Position numbers and translations under genes: made by a program. From the IMG/VR virus record IMGVR_UViG_3300025732_000164, positions 1-32,283 of that record: a stretch of 32,283 nucleotides of DNA. One strand, written 5' to 3'. The DNA is from a virus. Below, piece after piece: positions 7,135 to 26,946 of the stretch. A model generated the notes under the pieces. That model was not told the DNA's origin and searched no databases. It saw only the letters and a list, made by a program, of their open reading frames with translations. Every line of letters begins with the position of its first letter. Within the stretch, counting starts at the first letter, position 1.

Positions 7135-7142
7135 CATAAATA
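7135..7142 (+). promoter_or_regulatory. Late promoter CATAAATA with adjacent anti-Shine-Dalgarno
   Basis: CATAAATA matches the T4 late consensus at 7 of 8 positions. ACTCCT (7142-7147), directly after the box and upstream of the expected start near 7148, is the exact complement of AGGAGT (7168-7173) in the next gene's ribosome site. Confidence 0.75.
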
Positions 7143-7175
7143 CTCCTGGACCAACCTATCGCTATGGAGGAGTGA

Positions 7176-8162
7176 GTGACTCTAGAACTCAACGTGTCGC
7201 CTGAAGTTCTTCGAAGCAGAAAGATCCTAGTGTGCACTCCCATGTACGGTGGGATGTGCGCCGGTCACTACGCTAAGTCCTGCTCCGACCTCAAGGCAGT
7301 GGGCATGCACTACGGAGTCGAGATCGACTTCTTCTACCTATTCAACGAGAGTCTGATCCCGCGAGCTCGAAACTACCTCGTGGACGAGTTCCTTCGCAAC
7401 AAGAAGTACACTCACCTAATGTTCGTCGACGCCGACATCGGCTTCGACCCGAGCGACGTCATCGCGCTCTCCATCATCGCCGACTCGTCCTCTGAGATGG
7501 ACATCGTGTGCGGCCCGTACCCAAAGAAGTGCATCTCCTGGGAGAAGATCAAGCGGGCCGTGGACAAGGGATTCGCCGACAAGGACGCGAACGTCCTCGA
7601 GAACTACGTCGGCGACTACGTCTTCAACCCAACGTCCGGGTCAGAGACTCTGCGTCTCGATGAGCCAGTCGAAGTACTCGAGGGCGGCACCGGCTTCATG
7701 ATGATCCCGCGTCGGACGCTCGAGCGCTTCTCCGAGGCGTACCCAGAGATAAACTACAGGCCCGACCACGTTCGCACCGAGCACTTCGACGGCTCGAGGA
7801 AGATCGGACAGTTCTTCCAGGCTGAGATCGACCGGTACAGTCCAGTCACCGTCTACGAGGCCGTGATCAAGCGCCTCATCGACGGCGAGCAGGTCGACGT
7901 CACCGAGGTCAAGAAGATGTACGAGGACGCTCAGAGAAAGATTCACGACTCGAGCGAGCGTTACCTCTCCGAGGACTACTGGTTCTGTCAGAAAGCCCGC
8001 GCCGCGGGTATGAAGGTGTGGCTCTGCCCCTGGATGAAGTTGCAGCACTTCGGAACTTACATGTTCGGAGGCAGCCTCATCGACCTAGCTCAGATCGGCG
8101 CGTCGGCCACCGCAGACCCAGCGTCTATCGGTAAGGCTAAGAAGCTGGCGAGTGGTCGTTGA
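7176..8162 (+). CDS. Glycosyltransferase-like protein (GT-A fold, GT2-like)
   Basis: This 328-residue protein has an N-terminal nucleotide-sugar-type domain. KILVCTPMYGG (16-26) is a typical first strand, RARNYLVDEFL (64-74) follows, and LMFVDADIGF (81-90) holds the DxD motif that binds metal and the sugar nucleotide. Later features are GGTGFMMIPRR (an acceptor-side loop) and SEDYWFCQKARAAGMKVWL, which matches the conserved ED-x-FC region of GT2 enzymes. Similar proteins occur in T4-like cyanophages. The target is unknown: virion protein, host surface or modified DNA are all possible. GTG 7176 follows GGAGGA at 7166-7171. The late promoter upstream implies late expression, favouring virion decoration. 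Confidence 0.75.
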   Translation: MTLELNVSPEVLRSRKILVCTPMYGGMCAGHYAKSCSDLKAVGMHYGVEIDFFYLFNESLIPRARNYLVDEFLRNKKYTHLMFVDADIGFDPSDVIALSIIADSSSEMDIVCGPYPKKCISWEKIKRAVDKGFADKDANVLENYVGDYVFNPTSGSETLRLDEPVEVLEGGTGFMMIPRRTLERFSEAYPEINYRPDHVRTEHFDGSRKIGQFFQAEIDRYSPVTVYEAVIKRLIDGEQVDVTEVKKMYEDAQRKIHDSSERYLSEDYWFCQKARAAGMKVWLCPWMKLQHFGTYMFGGSLIDLAQIGASATADPASIGKAKKLASGR

Positions 8163-9852: not shown

Positions 9853-10280
9853 GTATCAACCCATTCGAGTTCGTAGACTCCGTCGGGTTCACTAAGAGGA
9901 ACCTGATCCGCGAGGCCGAGGACCCGGCGGCCGCAGAGCGCGAGTACAACCCGTTCATAGTGAACCGGGCGCTCTCGTACCACATCGACGCCATACACTA
10001 CGCGAACGAGATGAACTTCCACCGAGACCTGAGCGGGCTTCTCGCGGTCGACTTTCTTATAAATACTCTAAGAAAGCGGAAGCGGTTCGCTAAGTGGGCC
10101 AAGCCCGTGGTCGAAGACGACGTAGGTATAGTCATGGAGTACCACGGCTACAACCGCGCTCGAGCCACGGAAGCCCTGAGGCTGCTAACTTCCGAGCAGC
10201 TCGACTCCATGCGAGCGACTCTAGAGAGGGGTGGCCGTGACGGCAGGGATCGTCGACTCGATGGTGGAGGTGAGGCTTAA
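9849..10280 (+). CDS. gp62: Clamp-loader small subunit
   Basis: This 143-residue protein follows gp44 with a GTGA overlap (GTG 9849 and TGA 9850-9852), as expected for clamp-loader partners made in fixed ratio. Sequence features are NPFEFVDSV at the start, EYNPFIVNRALSYHIDAIHYANEMN (typical of cyanophage-type gp62), RKRKRFAKWAK, and a C-terminal ATEALRLLTSEQLDSMRATLE helix. It is shorter than T4 gp62 (187), as in other marine T4-like phages. A perfect TATAAATA lies inside the gene at 10058. The C-terminal 44 bases overlap the regA reading frame. Confidence 0.9.
   Translation: MSINPFEFVDSVGFTKRNLIREAEDPAAAEREYNPFIVNRALSYHIDAIHYANEMNFHRDLSGLLAVDFLINTLRKRKRFAKWAKPVVEDDVGIVMEYHGYNRARATEALRLLTSEQLDSMRATLERGGRDGRDRRLDGGGEA
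10058..10065 (+). promoter_or_regulatory. Perfect TATAAATA inside gp62 (possible late promoter)
   Basis: This is an 8/8 match to the T4 late consensus followed by CTC, as at other late sites here, but it lies within the gp62 coding sequence (encoding part of FLINTLR). It could give late transcripts of regA and the Dps-like gene, or be coincidental. Confidence 0.4.
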
Positions 10281-10644
10281 GTCTCCCGAGGACTTTCTAA
10301 AAGTCCGCGAGACTCTCACTCGCATCGGCGTAGCGTCCAAGAAGGACCGTAAGCTCTACCAGTCCTGTCACATACTTCACAAGCGCGGTCGGTACTTCAT
10401 CGTTCACTTCAAGGAGCTGTTCGCTCTCGACGGTAAGCCGACGGACTTCAGCGAAGACGACATCGGCCGCAGGAATACGATAACTAACCTACTGGGTGAG
10501 TGGGGCCTGGTCGACCTAGTCGACGACCGGTCTAAGAGTCCTACGGTCCCAGTGTCACAGATCAAGATACTGACTCACCGAGAGAAGGACGACTGGATCC
10601 TAGAATCTAAGTATCAGATCGGAAAGAAGCGAGGAGAGTACTGA
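10237..10644 (+). CDS. regA: Translational repressor RegA
   Basis: RegA binds ribosome-binding regions of early phage mRNAs, including clamp-operon messages in T4, and represses their translation. The core sequence MVEVRLKSPEDFLKVRETLTRIGVASKKDRKLYQSCHIL... (residues 9 onward) follows the T4 RegA pattern MIEINLKTPEDFLKIKETL closely, and GRYFIVHFKELFALDGK is also conserved. With GTG 10237, six bases after AGAGAGGG, the protein is 135 residues. ATG 10261 (127 residues) matches the T4 start better but has poorer ribosome-site spacing; GTG 10231 is too close to that site. Its stop overlaps the next ATG (TGATG). Confidence 0.92.
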   Translation: MTAGIVDSMVEVRLKSPEDFLKVRETLTRIGVASKKDRKLYQSCHILHKRGRYFIVHFKELFALDGKPTDFSEDDIGRRNTITNLLGEWGLVDLVDDRSKSPTVPVSQIKILTHREKDDWILESKYQIGKKRGEY

Positions 10645-11075
10645 TGTCAGCAGTCGACGCCATGAGGACGTACTTCGCGACTTCGTTCGCGTTCTACCTC
10701 AAGACGCACTACTTTCACTGGAACATCGAGGGCGAGAACTTTCCGCAGTATCACAAGCTCCTCGAGGAGATCTACACCGACGTGTACGGTGCAGTCGATC
10801 CCGCGGCAGAGTTCATTCGCACGCTTGGTCAGTACGCGCCAGGCTCGCTCAACCGATTCATCGAGCTCTCTCGAGTCCAGGACACTACGTCAGTCCCAGC
10901 GGCTAGAGACATGATGCAGCAGCTGCTGGCTGACAACTCGAAGGTCCTCGAGACGATCCGCGACGCGTACGACGCCGCTGAGTCCGAGGGCGAGCACGGT
11001 CTGTCGAACTTCCTCGCCGACCGCCAGGCAGCGCACAAGAAGTGGCAGTGGTTCCTGCAGTCGACGATCAAGTAG
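10644..11075 (+). CDS. Dps-like miniferritin
   Basis: This 143-residue protein is a ferritin-like four-helix-bundle member of the Dps family, which oxidises and stores iron in a 12-subunit shell and often protects DNA. The ferroxidase residues are all present with Dps spacing: H25 in HYFHWN, H37, D52 and E56, i.e. 12, 27 and 31 residues apart as in E. coli Dps. The lysine-rich N-terminal tail used by E. coli Dps to bind DNA is missing, so iron/peroxide detoxification is more certain than DNA binding. It overlaps regA by TGATG and is the last gene of the clamp operon. It may protect phage DNA or replication proteins from oxidative damage. Confidence 0.85.
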   Translation: MSAVDAMRTYFATSFAFYLKTHYFHWNIEGENFPQYHKLLEEIYTDVYGAVDPAAEFIRTLGQYAPGSLNRFIELSRVQDTTSVPAARDMMQQLLADNSKVLETIRDAYDAAESEGEHGLSNFLADRQAAHKKWQWFLQSTIK

Positions 11076-11078
11076 TCG

Positions 11079-11107
11079 TTGACATATGGGCCGTCGTGAA
11101 TTATATA
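11079..11107 (+). promoter_or_regulatory. Sigma70-type promoter for hsp20
   Basis: TTGACA (11079-11084), a 17-base spacer and TATATA (11102-11107) within TTATATATAG. Unlike the other seven promoters it has no TGN just before the -10. The expected start is near 11114. Confidence 0.75.
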
Positions 11108-11111
11108 TAGA

Positions 11112-11171
11112 GTAGGCGTCGCCTCCGGGGGCGCCTACCTGACCCTTGCTGAAAACAGGAGGAAAGCAGCA
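11112..11171 (+). promoter_or_regulatory. Candidate ROSE-like RNA thermometer in the hsp20 leader
   Basis: A GC-rich stem (GTAGGCG 11112-11118 with CGCCTAC 11132-11138) is followed by CCTTGCT (11144-11150). That segment can pair with the AGGAGG ribosome site (11157-11162) over a six-base loop, with G11148 bulged out and one U-G pair. This U-U/C-G-C-U versus AGGA arrangement with a bulged G is the hallmark of ROSE thermometers before small heat-shock genes. An alternative stem, TTGCTG 11146-11151 with CAGCAA 11167-11172, would instead cover the start codon. Either could make translation temperature-sensitive. Confidence 0.6.
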
Positions 11172-11636
11172 ATGTACGACAGCACTCTTCGTAAGATGTT
11201 CGACCAGTCCTTCGTCGGGTTCGACGAAGTCTTTGACCGCCTCAGCCGCTTCAGCGGTGACATGAAGAAGGCGATCCCCACCTACCCGCCCTACAACATT
11301 AAGAAGGTCGATGATAACCGGTACTGCATCGAGCTCGCGGTCGCTGGCTTCGGTAAGACCGACATCGACGTCGTGATCGAGGACGGGACTCTCACCATCA
11401 AGGGAGAGACTAAGTCTCAGCCTGAGAACCAGATGTACCTGTTCAAGGGCATCGCGGACCGAGCCTTCAAGCGCACGTTCAACGTGGCCGACACCATCGA
11501 GATCCGCAACGCGGAGCTCATCAACGGCATGCTTCGAGTCTGGCTCGAGAACATCATTCCGGACCACAAGAAGCCCCGCAAGGTCGACGTGACCGAGCCC
11601 GGCGAAGTGACCGGTAAGCAGCTGCTCAACGAGTAG
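11172..11636 (+). CDS. hsp20: Small heat-shock protein Hsp20 (alpha-crystallin family)
   Basis: This 154-residue protein is an IbpA-type small chaperone that holds unfolded proteins in the cytoplasm. The N-terminus (STLRKMFDQSFVGFDEVFDRL) is typical of bacterial IbpA. The alpha-crystallin domain spans about 38-135: PPYNIKKVDDNRYCIELAVAGF, VVIEDGTLTIKGET, and NGMLRVWLENIIP, a variant of the A-x-x-x-n-G-x-L signature. Hsp20 is a recurrent gene in T4-like cyanophages, where a role in virion assembly has been suspected. ATG 11172 follows AGGAGG (11157-11162) by nine bases. C-ending codons suggest high expression. It has its own promoter and a structured leader, and is followed by a hairpin. Confidence 0.93.
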   Translation: MYDSTLRKMFDQSFVGFDEVFDRLSRFSGDMKKAIPTYPPYNIKKVDDNRYCIELAVAGFGKTDIDVVIEDGTLTIKGETKSQPENQMYLFKGIADRAFKRTFNVADTIEIRNAELINGMLRVWLENIIPDHKKPRKVDVTEPGEVTGKQLLNE

Positions 11637-11659: not shown

Positions 11660-11683
11660 GGAGGGGGCGCCTGCCCCCTCCTT
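11660..11683 (+). terminator. GC-rich hairpin after hsp20 (weak terminator or attenuator)
   Basis: GGAGGGGGC (11660-11668) pairs perfectly with GCCCCCTCC (11673-11681) over a four-base loop, followed by only two T. The 3' arm sequence CCTCCT (11677-11682) can alternatively pair with the AGGAGG ribosome site of the next gene (11690-11695), so two mutually exclusive folds exist. Confidence 0.65.
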
Positions 11684-11700: not shown

Positions 11701-11835
11701 GTGCTTAGGGCTATTCTAGAATCTCTGACTCCGTCGCGAGTCAGTCGCCTCGTCTCTGTCTTCAGAGACGCTCACGTACCGTACTCAGTGAGGATGGACG
11801 CTTTCAGGAGCATCGAGCGACTTCGGTGGCAGTGA
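11701..11835 (+). CDS. 44-residue hypothetical basic protein
   Basis: A GTG at 11701 follows a strong CAGGAGGA ribosome site (11689-11696), and the frame runs to TGA 11833-11835. The peptide begins VLRAILESLTPSRVSRLVSV and is Arg-rich and probably helical, with no membrane segment. I do not recognise it. It sits between hsp20 and the lysis genes, so it would be read on hsp20 read-through RNA. The ribosome site can be covered by the 3' arm of the hairpin upstream. Confidence 0.6.
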   Translation: MLRAILESLTPSRVSRLVSVFRDAHVPYSVRMDAFRSIERLRWQ

Positions 11836-11837
11836 GT

Positions 11838-11873
11838 CTTCTCTATAAATAGGTGACAGTCACCTAGGAGGAG
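11838..11873 (+). promoter_or_regulatory. Ribosome-site-sequestering hairpin containing a late promoter
   Basis: The sequence TAGGTGACAGTCACCTA (11850-11866) is a perfect palindrome. Below it, CTTCTCT (11838-11844) pairs with GGAGGAG (11867-11873, two U-G pairs), which is the endolysin Shine-Dalgarno. The AUAAA of the promoter (11845-11849) bulges out. Read-through RNA from hsp20 would form this stem, while RNA starting at about 11857 lacks its 5' arm. T4 lysozyme gene e is controlled in just this way. The palindrome alone could instead be a DNA operator. Confidence 0.65.
11844..11851 (+). promoter_or_regulatory. Late promoter TATAAATA of the lysis genes
   Basis: A perfect T4 late consensus with the expected start near 11857. 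It lies in the 5' arm of a hairpin that would cover the endolysin ribosome site (see the next entry). Confidence 0.88.
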
Positions 11874-11879
11874 CCAGCC

Positions 11880-12494
11880 GTGATCACAGAGCAGCAGCTT
11901 AGAGAGTGCCTCCCTCTAGCAACAGACGAGGCAGTCTATAACTTTGCTCCTGCGATTGCGGCTGCCATGGAAGAGTTCGACATCAGCAACGCTGCACGCG
12001 CCGCCGGGTTCATAGCCCAGTGCGGACACGAGAGCGGCAACCTGAAGTACGTCAAGGAAAACTTAAACTACAGCGCCCAGGGCCTGGCCAAGACTTTCCC
12101 GAAGTACTTCAACGCGTCGAACGCCGAGGCGTACGGGCGCAAGCCCGAGGCGATCGCTAACCGAGTCTATGCCAACCGCATGGGCAACGGTCCAGAGGAG
12201 TCTGGAGACGGCTGGGCGTTCCGCGGTCGCGGACTGATCCAGCTGACGGGCCGGGACAACTACCGAAGGTGCGGAGAGGGGCTTGGAGTCGACCTCTTGT
12301 CTGACCCAACGTACCTAGAGACTCACGAGGGCGCGGCTCGGTCCGCAGCGTGGTTCTGGAAGTCTCACGGCCTCAACGAGGTCGCTGACAGGCACGACGT
12401 CCTCAAGATGACTAAGATCATCAATGGCGGCACGATCGGCCTCGAGGAGCGTAAGCACAACTTCGAGCATGCCCTGAGCGTTCTGAATGGCTGA
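11880..12494 (+). CDS. Endolysin, GH19 chitinase-like lysozyme
   Basis: This 204-residue enzyme belongs to glycoside hydrolase family 19, whose phage members cut peptidoglycan glycan strands. The catalytic region is FIAQCGHESGNLKYVKENLNYSA; E51 in HES is the likely acid, with E60 in the second conserved position. GDGWAFRGRGLIQLTGRDNY is the family's substrate-cleft signature, and AAWFWKSHGLNEVAD and TKIINGG follow as usual. There is no signal peptide or membrane segment, so it needs the holin to reach the cell wall. GTG 11880 follows AGGAGGAG. The late promoter and hairpin upstream should restrict translation to late transcripts. It overlaps the holin-like gene by eight bases. Confidence 0.9.
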   Translation: MITEQQLRECLPLATDEAVYNFAPAIAAAMEEFDISNAARAAGFIAQCGHESGNLKYVKENLNYSAQGLAKTFPKYFNASNAEAYGRKPEAIANRVYANRMGNGPEESGDGWAFRGRGLIQLTGRDNYRRCGEGLGVDLLSDPTYLETHEGAARSAAWFWKSHGLNEVADRHDVLKMTKIINGGTIGLEERKHNFEHALSVLNG

Positions 12495-12873
12495 GAAGAA
12501 GGAAGAGTCTTGGATCAATGCCAAGTGGCGGCCAGTCATGGGCTGGCTGTACATGGCCACGTGCGCGTTCGACTTCATCGTCGCTCCGATAGCGTGGGCC
12601 ATCCTGCAGGCCCTCCTCAAGCTGCCGGTTAAGCAGTGGGAGCCTCTGACTCTGCAAGGAGCCGGTCTCTACCACCTAGCCATGGGTGCTGTGCTCGGCG
12701 TCGCGGCATGGAGCCGAGGGCAGGAGAAGATGGCTGGAGTAGGCGGCTCTTCTCCGGGATTCGGATCGAGCCCGATGGGAGCGAGTCGACCACTGACTCC
12801 GTCCGCTAGGCCGATGACTCCCGCGAGGGACACCGACGAGGAGGATGCGGACAACTCTCCGCGCCGCAGGTAA
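12487..12873 (+). CDS. Holin-like membrane protein
   Basis: This 128-residue protein overlaps the endolysin stop. Hydrophobic segments lie at about 19-43 (WLYMATCAFDFIVAPIAWAI...) and 58-76 (GAGLYHLAMGAVLGVAAW), and the region resembles the three-TM phage/gene-transfer-agent holin family (NAKWRPVMGW at the start and TLQGAGLYHLAMGAVLG). The C-terminal 45 residues are polar and disordered (Gly/Ser/Pro-rich, then DTDEEDADNSPRRR), as expected for a cytoplasmic holin tail. Holins form inner-membrane holes that release the endolysin at a set time. No Shine-Dalgarno is seen, so translation is probably coupled to the endolysin. Confidence 0.8.
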   Translation: MAEKKEESWINAKWRPVMGWLYMATCAFDFIVAPIAWAILQALLKLPVKQWEPLTLQGAGLYHLAMGAVLGVAAWSRGQEKMAGVGGSSPGFGSSPMGASRPLTPSARPMTPARDTDEEDADNSPRRR

Positions 12874-12880
12874 CTATCAG

Positions 12881-12909
12881 TTGACATCTCGCTCTTGATA
12901 TGATAGAGT
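12881..12909 (+). promoter_or_regulatory. Sigma70-type extended -10 promoter for gp43
   Basis: TTGACA (12881-12886), a 17-base spacer ending in TGA, TAGAGT (12904-12909). The ATG of gp43 begins seven bases after the -10 box, at the usual transcription start position, so the mRNA would be leaderless. Confidence 0.8.
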
Positions 12910-15389: not shown

Positions 15390-15397
15390 TATAAATA
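15390..15397 (+). promoter_or_regulatory. Late promoter TATAAATA adjoining an ATG
   Basis: A perfect late consensus starting three bases after the gp43 stop. The next ATG is at 15402, four bases past the box, so a late transcript would begin at or within the start codon and be leaderless. Confidence 0.75.
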
Positions 15398-15401
15398 CGA
15401 C

Positions 15402-15782
15402 ATGACCAACGTTCCTCCAGAGTACCTGGGCTACGACTACGGCTTCACTGCAGTGGACGAGAGCGACATGCTGCTCAAGAAGTCCCAGGCAGCCGAGCCC
15501 GCTGCGCCACAGCTTCCAGCAGACGTACTCGAGTCGATCCTCGATAGGATCGAGTCCAAGCTGGACAACATTGGGATCGCGGTGCAAGACGTTGGAGCGA
15601 AAGGCACGGCTCTCGTCGAGTCCACAGAGTACGGCGAGAAGATCAAGAAGCTCGAGGCCATCATCGTGCCTCTTCTGAACAACCTCTTGAAGACGGCTGA
15701 CAAAGAGTGGATCCACTGGCCGAACAGGCGAGAGACTCTTCAGAGACAACTCGACGCAGTCATATCCATAACTCGAGGCTGA
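15402..15782 (+). CDS. Conserved T4-like phage protein with coiled coil
   Basis: This 126-residue protein starts MTNVPPEYLGYDYGFTAVDE, an N-terminal pattern I recall from marine T4-like phages, and ends KKLEAIIVPLLNNLLKTADK...IHWPNRRETL, also conserved in that group. The middle (about 43-72) is helical and probably coiled-coil. No enzyme motif or membrane segment is visible. The ATG has no Shine-Dalgarno; a late promoter directly abuts it. An upstream in-frame extension into gp43 was not used because the conserved N-terminus starts here. The late promoter suggests a structural or assembly role. The next gene starts one base after its stop. Confidence 0.75.
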   Translation: MTNVPPEYLGYDYGFTAVDESDMLLKKSQAAEPAAPQLPADVLESILDRIESKLDNIGIAVQDVGAKGTALVESTEYGEKIKKLEAIIVPLLNNLLKTADKEWIHWPNRRETLQRQLDAVISITRG

Positions 15783-21370: not shown

Positions 21371-21502
21371 GTGACTAGCGACTTGACTAAACTGATCGCA
21401 GCGTTTGCTCTGAGCGTGTACCTACTGTTCGGTCTGCCAAGGACCGTCGAGTGGGCGATCCGTCACTCAGGCTGGATCGAGTCGCACCGATCCCACGAGT
21501 GA
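21371..21502 (+). CDS. 43-residue single-pass membrane peptide
   Basis: GTG 21371 follows GGAGGG and the frame runs to TGA 21500-21502, which overlaps the late promoter. The peptide VTSDLTKLIAAFALSVYLLF contains one hydrophobic helix, then GLPRTVEWAIRHSGW and a polar tail. Its position directly after the phosphate transporter suggests co-expression, and it could be a small regulator of that membrane protein, but this is inference. I do not recognise it. Confidence 0.55.
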   Translation: MTSDLTKLIAAFALSVYLLFGLPRTVEWAIRHSGWIESHRSHE

Positions 21503-21508
21503 TAAATA
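21501..21508 (+). promoter_or_regulatory. Late promoter GATAAATA with adjacent anti-Shine-Dalgarno
   Basis: This 7/8 late match begins within the preceding stop (TGATAAATA). ACTCC (21508-21512) is complementary to the GGAGT ribosome site (21529-21533) and lies upstream of the expected start near 21514. Confidence 0.75.
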
Positions 21509-21538
21509 CTCCGGTCTCGTAATAGATTGGAGTGAACC

Positions 21539-23062
21539 ATGGGAAGCTCGATAATTGGCTGGGCAAAGACGTGCGCTAATGACTTGACCAAGCCTAACTC
21601 TCCGAGACCCAGGGGCAGCGCGCTGGTCGGATACACTCCGACTGACTGGAGTAAGACTCCCGACGGAAAGGGAGGGTTCACGTATGCGGACCCTCGCCTC
21701 AACGTCCTGCAGGAGAACCTTCTAGTCATAAACCAGCTTCTGTCAGACCTGCGCGAGCGCGCGCTCAACGATCTGTCCGGAGAGATAAGAAGCAACCTCG
21801 AGGCTAGGACCATCAAGGATCCTACGATCGAGCGCATCGGGTGGATCATGGCTAAGATGGTCGAGTGCGTCGCGCTGGCGTTCCCAGCGGGCACAGTCGG
21901 AGCCGTCGTCGCCGGTCTAGTATGTCGCCTAGCGTCCGGCGGCATACAGTACATCACGAAGACGAACCAGGACAACCCAGACTATCAGCAGGCGATCAAC
22001 GACCTGCACAACTCAGTCGACGAGTGGTTCAGCGACCTAGAGGATCAGATCAGCGACTGGATACAGGACCTACAGGGTAGCTGGAGTAAGCCGTACACGG
22101 ACCAGGACGGAAAGACGATTCGCTTGTCCGAGATCGCCGAGCACGACGAGAAGCTTCCTCACAAGGGTCCTCAGAAAGAGTACAACGAGTGGTTCAACCT
22201 GAGCACTTATCTAGTCAAGCGGCTCATGGTTCGACAGCTGCTCCCGGTGCAGTACATGAAGCGCTCCGCGGGGATGAGCTTCAACGAGGATGAGACTGAG
22301 TACAACGCGTACTGGTTCTGGAACGTGAACTGGGTCGAGGTTCGCAACTCTGACACGTGGGACAGTTGGCGCCGGCGCAGCGAGTGGCCGCGAGTCCCGT
22401 CCGACATGAGGAGAGACCTAGAGGGGCCGCACGAGGACATAGGCAACTGGCAGGACATCAAGGGTGGGCACCAGTACTACCAGAGCACCAACGGCGACGG
22501 CAAAGTCGTCCTCAACGCAGCGGTGTGGGACAACGGCCAGTACTGGTGGACGCGAAAGTCTGACAACCGCTGGTGGTACTGGGGAGGTCGCGACTGCTCA
22601 TCGTGGGACGCTAGGACTCAGGGAAGCACGTGCGGCGCCGTCATCGACGGCAATGGAAACATCCTCAGGGGGCACGTGTTCCTCGACTACGTCAGCGACG
22701 TACTCAACAACGTGGGTCGGTTCAACATATGTCAGAACCTAGGACCGAGCTGCCTACTTTACTACGAGCTCAAGGACCCGAGGACTGGCCAGATCGTTCG
22801 CAACAGCAGGAGCCGGGACCTACTGCTCAACGTCGACTCCTGCAAGGACTACTTCTATCAGATCAACTGGTTCAAGTGGAACTGGTGCTACGTAGGCGTC
22901 CAGCTTAGGTTCTACATACTGACCGACTCGAGCGGGAACCGCATGAACGACGCGACGGCGAGGTGGCTGTTCAGAGACGACGGGCACGGGAACGTCACGA
23001 ATCCAAAGGGCATCGCCGACCGCCTCGATGTGTACTTCAACTGGGGCCTCTCCCAGCGGTAG
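21539..23062 (+). CDS. Orphan 507-residue late protein
   Basis: I do not recognise this protein. Residues 1-100 are mixed polar and helical. Residues 101-139 form a long hydrophobic stretch rich in Ala/Gly/Val (GWIMAKMVECVALAFPAGTV, then GAVVAGLVCRLASGG), long enough for one or two membrane helices or a buried hairpin. An acidic Trp-containing helix follows (NDLHNSVDEWFSDLEDQISD). The C-terminal half is strikingly rich in Trp and Tyr (YAYWFWNVNW-like clusters, WWYWGG) and has several cysteines. The layout, a helical hydrophobic domain followed by an aromatic beta-rich domain, resembles some pore-forming or carbohydrate-binding proteins, but that is only a resemblance. ATG 21539 follows GGAGTG. 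The late promoter points to a virion or lysis-stage role. Confidence 0.7.
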   Translation: MGSSIIGWAKTCANDLTKPNSPRPRGSALVGYTPTDWSKTPDGKGGFTYADPRLNVLQENLLVINQLLSDLRERALNDLSGEIRSNLEARTIKDPTIERIGWIMAKMVECVALAFPAGTVGAVVAGLVCRLASGGIQYITKTNQDNPDYQQAINDLHNSVDEWFSDLEDQISDWIQDLQGSWSKPYTDQDGKTIRLSEIAEHDEKLPHKGPQKEYNEWFNLSTYLVKRLMVRQLLPVQYMKRSAGMSFNEDETEYNAYWFWNVNWVEVRNSDTWDSWRRRSEWPRVPSDMRRDLEGPHEDIGNWQDIKGGHQYYQSTNGDGKVVLNAAVWDNGQYWWTRKSDNRWWYWGGRDCSSWDARTQGSTCGAVIDGNGNILRGHVFLDYVSDVLNNVGRFNICQNLGPSCLLYYELKDPRTGQIVRNSRSRDLLLNVDSCKDYFYQINWFKWNWCYVGVQLRFYILTDSSGNRMNDATARWLFRDDGHGNVTNPKGIADRLDVYFNWGLSQR

Positions 23063-24244: not shown

Positions 24245-24252
24245 CATAAATA
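24245..24252 (+). promoter_or_regulatory. Late promoter CATAAATA of the virion-gene block
   Basis: A 7/8 late consensus match with the expected start near 24258. CCGCAG (24255-24260), which straddles the expected start, pairs with CTGCGG (24277-24282), overlapping the first bases of the GGGAGG ribosome site (24281-24286). Confidence 0.78.
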
Positions 24253-24291
24253 GACCGCAGTAAGTCCAAGGAAAACCTGCGGGAGGCGCGC

Positions 24292-26946
24292 GTGGCCGGT
24301 AAGACTCAGCTCCTAGAGCGAGACGATGAGATCAGCGACAGCGAGCTGTCTTCCGTCCTAGACAAGCACAGCCCCAGCGACCTAGACCCCCACCCGAGCG
24401 ACGCGCCGTACGCGCACGTTCTAGACGACCTACTGGGCGACGACCTCGAGGAGGGAGTCCTCAGTACTCAGTCACGTCAGAAGCTAGCGTCTCGCATGCG
24501 CGCTATGGCGTCTAAGCTGACGCGCATGAGATCCATGAAGCGCTTTCGCATGGCTCCGTCGGCTCGCCTGCAGTACAGGGCTCGCAAAGCAGCGATCATG
24601 GCGCTACGTCGGAGAGTCGCTGGAGACCGCGGGAAGAGGTACTCTGACCTATCTCCGTCTGAGCGAGTTCAGATCGACAAGCAGGTCTTATCCAGGTTCG
24701 GAAAGAACTTCAGAGTAATCGTGACGAACGCGGCGCGCCGGCTCCTACCGATGATTCGCAGGAAGGAGTCTGAGCGGCTCAGAGTCGCTCGGGCGAACGA
24801 GTCGTACAAGCCCGGGTACTACAAGGGTCTGGCTTCTTCGACCAAGAGGGCGCGCCACGCTCACTTCGCTAGGCAGACTAAGATGTCCGACGACGACCCA
24901 GCGGCGTACAAGAAGGCGCCCGGAGACGACAGGGAGACTCGAATGAGCAAGCACACTCGTAAGTATCACTCCGTGTACGAGGGTCGAAAGTCCGCTCACG
25001 GCGGCACCGACGACGACCCGCAGGACAACATCGTCTATCAGATGAGGAAGGTCATCAACCTCCGCGGTAAGCACAAGGTCAAGTTCGCCGACGGCTCGAC
25101 GATGGACATGCACCCAGACCACGCTCGGCACATCATCTCTAGGTACATGGCTCAGCCTAAGCCGCTCGACAAGCATAAGTTCGTTCGTCGCCTTGGCGCG
25201 TCATCCACCAACATGCGGAAGGAGCTTGGTGACCAGTTCTCGATCGACAAGGATCTTCCGGTGTCGTCGGACCCGCGCGAGTTCCCAGTCCGCTCGTCGT
25301 ACCTGACTTCGGGTAAGAAGCCTGTGCGAGAGGGGATGGGATACAGAGTCACTGGTCGAGCGACTGACTTCGTCCCGCAGAACGCTCCCGAGTTTCCTCC
25401 CACCAGCCACGCCATCCCGACGGCGTCCATGGAGACCGAGGCCGACGAGAAGGCCGCGGCCATGGCCAAGGACCGAAGCGTGGGCACTCTGCTCCGCCTG
25501 GGTCTCGCTAAGCCAGACGACGCGACCAAGATTCAGAAGTGGCTGAAGTCTGACAAGGGCAAGTCTATGTCGAGCGCGATGCGCGACAAGCTCCTGGGAG
25601 TACTCGACAAGCTCATGGGAGCGGCCGCAGACGATCCTCAGTTCATCTCTCGCGTCAGGACCAAGCACCTCGACATGAGAGAGGACGTCGCTACTCAGAT
25701 CGAGCGCGAGAGGTCTGCTCTGTCACAGCGGCACGAGCGCGAGCGCGAGGCCCTGCACCGCCGCATGCACGCTAAGAAGGCGGCGGATAAGAAGCACAAG
25801 GAGACCCTCGCTAAGTCTAGGTCCTCGAGCTACCTGAAGGCCGACGTCGAGCACGAGATCAGCGAGGCCGCTGACCGAGGACTTCAGAAGAAGGCGGAGA
25901 AGTCAGGCATTCCCGTGGGAATCCTTCGCAAGGTCTACAACAGGGGCATGGCCGCGTGGAAGACTGGTCACCGCCCAGGAGCAAACCAGCAGCAGTGGGC
26001 GTACGCTCGAGTCAACAGCTTCATCACCAAGGGCAAGGGTACCTGGGGCGGCGCCGACAAGGACCTAGCTTCTCGAGTTCGCGAGGAGGTCGAGGCCGTC
26101 GACGAGGCGACCATCTCTCGCCGCAAGTACACGGTCGGTAAACCGATGTCTTCCTACAAGCCCATCGCGAAGGGCAGCTCGGACATGTCCGGCTTCAAGG
26201 GAGTCGACTGGAAGAAGGCCACCGACTCAGTCCTCGCCGACCTACGGCGCGAGCGAGAGGCGAGGGCTAAGAAGCCTGTCGCTGAGGCGGCTGGGATCGG
26301 CACCGACGAGCTTCGCCAAGAGTACGCCGCGGCGACTCCTGGCCAGAGAACCGGAGAGGTCAGCGTCTCCCACGTGTCGGCTCCTAAGCCGTGGGAGGTC
26401 GACGAGCAGGCTGAGTCGACTCGCGACATCGGTAAGTCGGTCCGCACCTGGGAGCAGGTCCGCACCGTCCTGTCTGGAAGAAAGAACGTCAGCGAGGCGT
26501 TCGTCGCTGGGATCGACGACGCGCCGTTCGCTCGAGAGGTGGGCTTCGGTCTCGGCGGTAAGACCTTCGAGCACCACCCGTCCGTAGTCGAGGAGGCTAA
26601 GGAAGAGTGCCCCGGCTGCAAGGACTGCGAGGGCGTCGAGGAGGAGCTCAGAGACTACCAAGACGTCGACGAGGAGAACATCACTCACAAGGGTCGAGCC
26701 ATCAAGCTCGGTGCGGTGACTAAGTCCAACCGACCGAACAAGAAGCGCATGGTCCACGTTCGCAACGACAAGGGCAACGTGGTCACCGTGCACTTCGGCG
26801 ATCCCAACCTTGAGATCAAGAGGGACAACCCAGAGCGACGCAGGAACTTCAGAGCGCGCCACAACTGCTCTGACCCAGGTCCGAGGTGGAAGGCTAAGTA
26901 CTGGTCGTGCAGGTACTGGTCTAAGACTCCAGTCAGCAAGATGTAG
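24292..26946 (+). CDS. Large basic virion-associated protein (conserved in T4-like marine phages)
   Basis: This 884-residue protein looks mosaic. After an acidic N-terminus (1-60), VLSTQSRQKLASRMRAMASK begins a strongly basic helical region (about 57-170, with RARKAAIMALRRRVAG and LSPSERVQIDK) that I recall from many marine T4-like phages. A segment around 550-590 contains GMAAWKTGHRPGANQQQWAY and ARVNSFITKGKGTWGGADKDL, a motif shared by diverse phage proteins (I believe DUF5824). The last 30 residues, RARHNCSDPGPRWKAKYWSC, form another recurrent phage C-terminal tail with two cysteines that may bind metal. Basic content and the late promoter suggest an internal head or DNA-packaging-related protein; no enzyme motif is visible. 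GTG 24292 follows GGGAGG. Confidence 0.75.
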   Translation: MAGKTQLLERDDEISDSELSSVLDKHSPSDLDPHPSDAPYAHVLDDLLGDDLEEGVLSTQSRQKLASRMRAMASKLTRMRSMKRFRMAPSARLQYRARKAAIMALRRRVAGDRGKRYSDLSPSERVQIDKQVLSRFGKNFRVIVTNAARRLLPMIRRKESERLRVARANESYKPGYYKGLASSTKRARHAHFARQTKMSDDDPAAYKKAPGDDRETRMSKHTRKYHSVYEGRKSAHGGTDDDPQDNIVYQMRKVINLRGKHKVKFADGSTMDMHPDHARHIISRYMAQPKPLDKHKFVRRLGASSTNMRKELGDQFSIDKDLPVSSDPREFPVRSSYLTSGKKPVREGMGYRVTGRATDFVPQNAPEFPPTSHAIPTASMETEADEKAAAMAKDRSVGTLLRLGLAKPDDATKIQKWLKSDKGKSMSSAMRDKLLGVLDKLMGAAADDPQFISRVRTKHLDMREDVATQIERERSALSQRHEREREALHRRMHAKKAADKKHKETLAKSRSSSYLKADVEHEISEAADRGLQKKAEKSGIPVGILRKVYNRGMAAWKTGHRPGANQQQWAYARVNSFITKGKGTWGGADKDLASRVREEVEAVDEATISRRKYTVGKPMSSYKPIAKGSSDMSGFKGVDWKKATDSVLADLRREREARAKKPVAEAAGIGTDELRQEYAAATPGQRTGEVSVSHVSAPKPWEVDEQAESTRDIGKSVRTWEQVRTVLSGRKNVSEAFVAGIDDAPFAREVGFGLGGKTFEHHPSVVEEAKEECPGCKDCEGVEEELRDYQDVDEENITHKGRAIKLGAVTKSNRPNKKRMVHVRNDKGNVVTVHFGDPNLEIKRDNPERRRNFRARHNCSDPGPRWKAKYWSCRYWSKTPVSKM

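Follow-up and report, generated by a model that had tools for sequence, protein, structure and literature searches.

T4 gene e is the textbook case of late-only control. Its late motif lies in or beside the 5' arm of a hairpin that holds the Shine-Dalgarno sequence (SD) in its 3' arm, and the late start drops the 5' arm from the transcript (McPheeters et al. 1986; review PMC3014915). The hairpins over the ribosome binding sites (RBS) of T4 soc, 49, I-TevI and I-TevII and of Aeh1 mobE follow the same principle, but they belong to non-lysis genes and are unrelated in sequence (PMC3014915). According to the 2010 review, the structure is present in some close T4 relatives and absent in others, and the cyanophages examined were without gene e (PMC3014915). 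T4 late motifs span -13 to -6, and CTAAATA is the late motif reported for Aeh1 (PMC1524935).

The locus described here resembles that of gene e in being a lysis gene with a late motif in or beside its 5' arm, the SD in its 3' arm, and a predicted late start that would drop the 5' arm. It differs from gene e in its enzyme, a GH19 endolysin (PF00182) unrelated to T4 lysozyme, which would work like e without being e. It also differs in its position between hsp20 and gp43, in its single promoter where T4 has two, and in a predicted start at the centre of a perfect palindrome.

Gene neighbourhood of the endolysin

The stretch of DNA analysed, hereafter the window, is a 32,283-base virus record and a fragment of an uncultured T4-superfamily phage. 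A T4-superfamily replication cluster runs along one strand, comprising a CobS-like ATPase, the gp45 clamp, the gp44 and gp62 clamp loader, regA, a ferritin-like protein, hsp20, the endolysin, a holin, gp43, UvsX and gp41; the features of the endolysin locus all lie on the + strand. The frame at 10644-11075 was considered as gp33 and dropped, as Pfam gives a ferritin-like protein. The endolysin (11880-12494) begins with GTG at 11880, falls in phrog_181 (endolysin) and matches PF00182 above the family cut-off; together with the neighbours hsp20 and gp43, this match supports the initial annotation of a GH19 enzyme inside the replication cluster. An Rfam search of the window gave no match.

One contig (L001) is near-identical to the window, and the next relatives by endolysin identity are L011 and L012 (86%), L010 (80%) and L013 to L015 (65%). 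The order hsp20, GH19 endolysin, in some cases holin, and gp43 is common to many uncultured T4-type contigs, and was absent from isolate phages among the matches listed. A DNA search gave scattered GH19 endolysin matches only, and Microcystis phage Mel-JY01 has a GH19 gene at a different place.

Early RNA running towards the endolysin would likely originate at a sigma70-like promoter of hsp20 (TTGACA, then TATATATA; 11079-11109), found by sequence and pattern scan and a consensus match only. Downstream of it lie hsp20 itself (11172-11636; phrog_432, PF00011), a terminator-like GC-rich hairpin with a weak U tract 3' of hsp20 (11660-11681; z -2.83), to which L010 has a similar hairpin in alignment, and a 44-aa reading frame with a good SD (11701-11835). 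This frame is kept in L002 and L010 with 64% identity over 36 aa; it had no match in a Pfam search and belongs to no known family. Its stop falls 2 nt before the 5' arm of the RBS hairpin and 44 nt before the endolysin, a geometry like that of T4, in which 37 nt separate e from the end of its upstream neighbour nudE. The suggestion that RNA reads through from hsp20 needs two corrections, as the terminator-like hairpin probably limits such read-through too, and the 44-aa frame intervenes before the endolysin.

On the other side, the holin (12487-12873; phrog_3427, PF11351) overlaps the end of the endolysin gene and is presumably carried by the endolysin's late RNA. gp43 has its own sigma70-like promoter (12881-12909, again a consensus match only), so it would be independent of RNA passing through the lysis genes. 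Another overlap of promoter and hairpin is seen in the hsp20 leaders of the window (11079-11171), L163, L175, L212, L221 and L313, where a TATAAATA or TATATATA box and a GC-rich hairpin are followed by CCTTGCT...AGGAGG.

Late motif, leader hairpin and predicted folds

The motif TATAAATA occurs five times on the + strand of the window and never on the - strand, against a chance expectation of about 0.1 per strand at 58% GC. Four of the five sites are intergenic, each following a stop codon at a distance of at most 9 nt; the fifth, at 10058, lies within the gp62 coding frame, is conserved there in L002, and is doubtful as a promoter. At another site (15390-15404) the motif stands 4 nt before the ATG at 15402, where either late RNA would be nearly leaderless or the true start lies downstream. 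The gp45 clamp is encoded in the window; gp55 is absent from this fragment, and gp33 was not identified. Homologues of the late sigma factor gp55 are present in all seven of the relatives with large contigs, which supports reading TATAAATA as a late promoter.

In the endolysin leader TATAAATA occupies 11844-11851, 36 nt before the start codon, and its assignment as a late promoter draws on the motif copies, the related leaders and the T4 register (PMC1524935). Applying that register of -13 to -6, transcription is expected to start near 11857. The motif adjoins and overlaps the outer 5' arm CTTCTCT (11838-11844), which pairs with the SD, GGAGGAG (11867-11873), as outer 3' arm through five Watson-Crick and two G-U pairs. 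Within this outer stem, a perfect 17-base palindrome, TAGGTGACAGTCACCTA (11850-11866, centre 11858), folds into an inner stem of seven pairs, and a 5-nt bulge, AUAAA, lies between the two stems. The centre of the palindrome coincides with the predicted start, and since both 5' arms (11838-11844 and 11850-11856) precede that start, RNA beginning there would lose the stem, as the initial annotation had proposed; its coordinates for the arms, promoter, palindrome and SD are all exact.

A perfect 17-bp palindrome that overlaps the end of the TATA box and the start site could also be a DNA operator, at which a repressor or activator directly controls the late promoter. We regard this as very improbable. 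The palindrome is single-copy in the window, and an exact search for promoter and palindrome found it elsewhere in one near-identical contig only; it is not conserved in L010, L012 and L013, which have other hairpins or none; and an operator would leave the outer, SD-pairing arm unexplained.

The predicted folds are consistent with a hairpin that hides the ribosome site until late transcription. The unpaired share of the SD is about 1% in read-through RNA and 65-69% in RNA from 11856-11859, and opening the initiation region is predicted to cost 21.1 kcal/mol in the long RNA versus 8.8 in the short. In the short RNA the GUG pairs with CAC, and the total opening cost of 8.8 is ordinary for the window. 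Among the window's 35 gene starts, that of the endolysin is the most occluded and gains most, 12.3 kcal/mol, when the RNA is truncated at -23. The second largest gain, 7.4 kcal/mol, belongs to the gene at 24292, and that of the gene at 21539 is also high (6.3); both genes stand behind late-type motifs. T4 gene e behaves in the same way in the same calculation, which upholds the likeness originally drawn between the two. A genome-wide T4 scan of pairing across the start placed e first and I-TevII second, with soc also significant; all are known cases, and the score thus finds real switches.

Could a GC-rich leader and a purine-rich SD form such a hairpin by chance, without a role, beside a real late promoter? 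The 43-nt hairpin (-14.4 kcal/mol, z -2.8) is equalled by 2 of 200 shuffles, which argues against this, whereas the 71-nt stretch around it stands out less (z -1.56), with 13 of 200 shuffles folding equally well. Pairing across the predicted late start is -8.8 kcal/mol versus -3.7 +/- 2.3 in SD-preserving shuffles (p=0.043), a modest significance for the window leader on its own, and L010 is without the hairpin. Together with the rank of the endolysin as most occluded of 35 starts, this pairing nevertheless lends computational support to the original claim of a late promoter joined to a hairpin over the endolysin ribosome site. The same hairpin placement is moreover strongly enriched in relatives, as described below, and we consider chance an unlikely explanation.

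The endolysin is not the only gene of this genome to have a late-type motif with an SD-pairing arm. Three more NATAAATA motifs are followed by bases that pair with or beside the next gene's SD (21501-21545, 7135-7180 and 24245-24296), with p values of 0.02, 0.10 and 0.02 for pairing across the start at genes 21539, 7176 and 24292, respectively. This phage may apply a late-only switch to several of its genes.

Endolysin leaders across related phages

Hairpins are placed non-randomly behind the endolysin late motif across relatives. The sample comprised 50 distinct GH19-endolysin leaders, less than 85% identical. In 47 of them NATAAATA or NCTAAATA starts 26-64 nt upstream of the start codon, usually with an inverted repeat directly behind the motif. 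Pairing across the predicted start reached p<0.05 in 24 of these 47 leaders against about 2 expected from SD-preserving shuffles, although the leaders are related and combined p-values overstate independence. Mean pairing over the leaders is strongest 6-15 nt past the motif, and immediately ahead of the motif it is weak. Automatic classing from single minimum free energy folds was unreliable, as alternative folds mix, and we relied on motif-anchored stems and on the energy of pairing across the start. The motif-anchored stem finder returned strong stems in 40% of endolysin leaders versus 1.4% of random positions; in late-type leaders of four large relatives the figure was 3% (2/67), one of the two being an endolysin. 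Values of -8 kcal/mol or better were found for 49% of endolysin leaders versus 16% of other late-motif genes in the same loci (p 1e-4). Among these other genes were the L230 endolysin, which is of another family, and the L004 homing endonuclease, both gene types known for such control in T4.

Two kinds of hairpin fill this slot. In the RBS-hiding kind, the SD or start codon lies within the 3' arm or next to it; this kind is found in the window, L013/L015, L044, L094, L202, L210/L211 and L313/L379, and the hairpins of different relatives are unrelated in sequence. In the terminator-like kind, a GC-rich hairpin is fused to the motif, often with a U-rich tail, as in AATAAATAGCGGGGAAGCAATTTCCCGCTATTTTT of L312. 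Nineteen leaders of this kind could be aligned, with compensatory changes in the stem, and covariation was seen in this class only. A good U tract is missing in part of the 19, and some of these may be blocking hairpins rather than terminators. A start six bases past the motif would drop most of the 5' arm, with the exception of L314, in which most of the stem survives a late start. As with intrinsic terminators between transcription units, many relatives have a GC-rich stem, several of them U-tailed, between an early and a late gene; the difference is that the 5' arm holds the predicted late start, and the stem could therefore not re-form in late RNA. If this reading is right, the terminator-like kind would block read-through RNA and spare late RNA, and the logic of gene e would be shifted from translation to transcription.

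The window hairpin might also have no part in translational control and reflect compaction or insulation. In that case a hairpin that blocks transcription or stabilises RNA would have been squeezed together with a late promoter into the gap behind hsp20, and the SD would be hidden as a by-product. About 19 relatives do have a GC-rich, often terminator-like, motif-fused hairpin in place of an RBS hairpin, and in phage C48C1 the fusion precedes a gene without known endolysin identity. The window hairpin, however, lacks a following U tract and is directly continuous with the SD, a terminator-like hairpin is already present elsewhere, at 11660-11681, and several relatives hide the SD or start codon too, in stems of unrelated sequence. 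We judge this explanation to be improbable for the window.

Whether a gene e-type logic was conserved or re-invented at this locus had been left as an alternative. The late motif is indeed conserved; the hairpins are not, as they differ in sequence and kind, and this looks like repeated re-invention under one constraint. Among the window's close relatives, the same hairpin with covariation was not found: L010, which shares the 44-aa frame, keeps GATAAATA and has no RBS hairpin, and in its place L011 and L012 carry a terminator-like hairpin ahead of the motif. Late-type motifs hardly occur in hsp20-gp43 gaps that lack GH19, of which 29 distinct ones were compared. Five were found: two precede endolysins from other families, that of L230 having the fusion and that of L236 no stem; one is in C48C1, where the fusion precedes a gene of unknown function; and two have weak stems only. 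The motif thus tends to track lysis genes and not hsp20.

Several leaders merit description in their own right. At the hsp20-gp43 locus of L230 (820-1350), a phrog_894 endolysin has the same late motif fused to a GC-rich hairpin. In the complete genome of C48C1 (OQ984149; L240, 4550-4610), the fusion AATAAATAAGGGGGAGAGATCCCCCTTCTTT lies behind hsp20 and before a 266-aa gene. The homing endonuclease of L004 (8472-8510) has its SD and start hidden by a stem beginning behind TATAAATA, as in T4 I-TevI and I-TevII. In the large relative L398 (15573-15625), regA has AATAAATA and a long hairpin over its SD and start, and late-only control of this translation repressor is possible. The leaders of L222, L243, L244, L344, L345 and L375 share a conserved hairpin, CTTCTATATTATG-loop-AATATAGGAG, over the SD; as it lies 15-20 nt past the late motif, it would be retained in late RNA, and these leaders may be under another control. 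CTCC behind the late motif was considered as a general anti-SD and dropped, being frequent in the window and not in T4 or four relatives.

Proposed mechanism and meaning

In our judgement, a T4 gene e-type late-only expression switch on the GH19 endolysin is the best explanation for the window, and probably the correct one. Early and middle RNA from hsp20, whose existence we infer, would carry the whole hairpin (11838-11873) with the SD buried and would give no endolysin. After replication begins, RNA polymerase with the phage late sigma factor and the clamp would use TATAAATA at 11844-11851, and transcription would start near 11857, in mid-palindrome. The resulting RNA would be without both 5' arms, its ribosome site would be exposed to translation, and the endolysin and overlapping holin would be made late only. 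It counts against such a switch that translation of the 44-aa frame would bring ribosomes to within 2 nt of the 5' arm, where they could disrupt the outer stem. The hairpin at 11660-11681 may also remove most read-through already, leaving the RBS hairpin little role.

A broader reading, to which we give an even chance, concerns the uncultured T4-superfamily group as a whole. Here, lysis genes in an early replication cluster would be insulated by a hairpin that the late start cuts. The slot would hold one of two devices, a hairpin that hides the RBS and acts on translation, as in T4 e and the window, or a terminator that is fused to the promoter by its 5' arm and acts on transcription, such that only RNA from the late promoter escapes. 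The arrangement would have arisen repeatedly and would tend to accompany the lysis gene, even where the endolysin belongs to another family. At this lysis locus, hairpins interrupted by the predicted late start do recur in these two forms. We did not find the terminator-like variant, a promoter-terminator fusion with the start inside the stem, described in the literature searched, in which subscription journals are thinly covered and absence is weak evidence.

That an unrelated enzyme in a distant branch of the superfamily, known from uncultured phages, should follow this logic, with differing hairpins in the same register, suggests a recurring constraint that is solved anew, namely that no lysis protein be made from early read-through RNA. 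A simple scan for pairing across NATAAATA+6 recovers known T4 cases and nominates new ones. If the proposal is true, the timing of lysis would be predictable from sequence, and these phages would offer a compact design of promoter and insulator.
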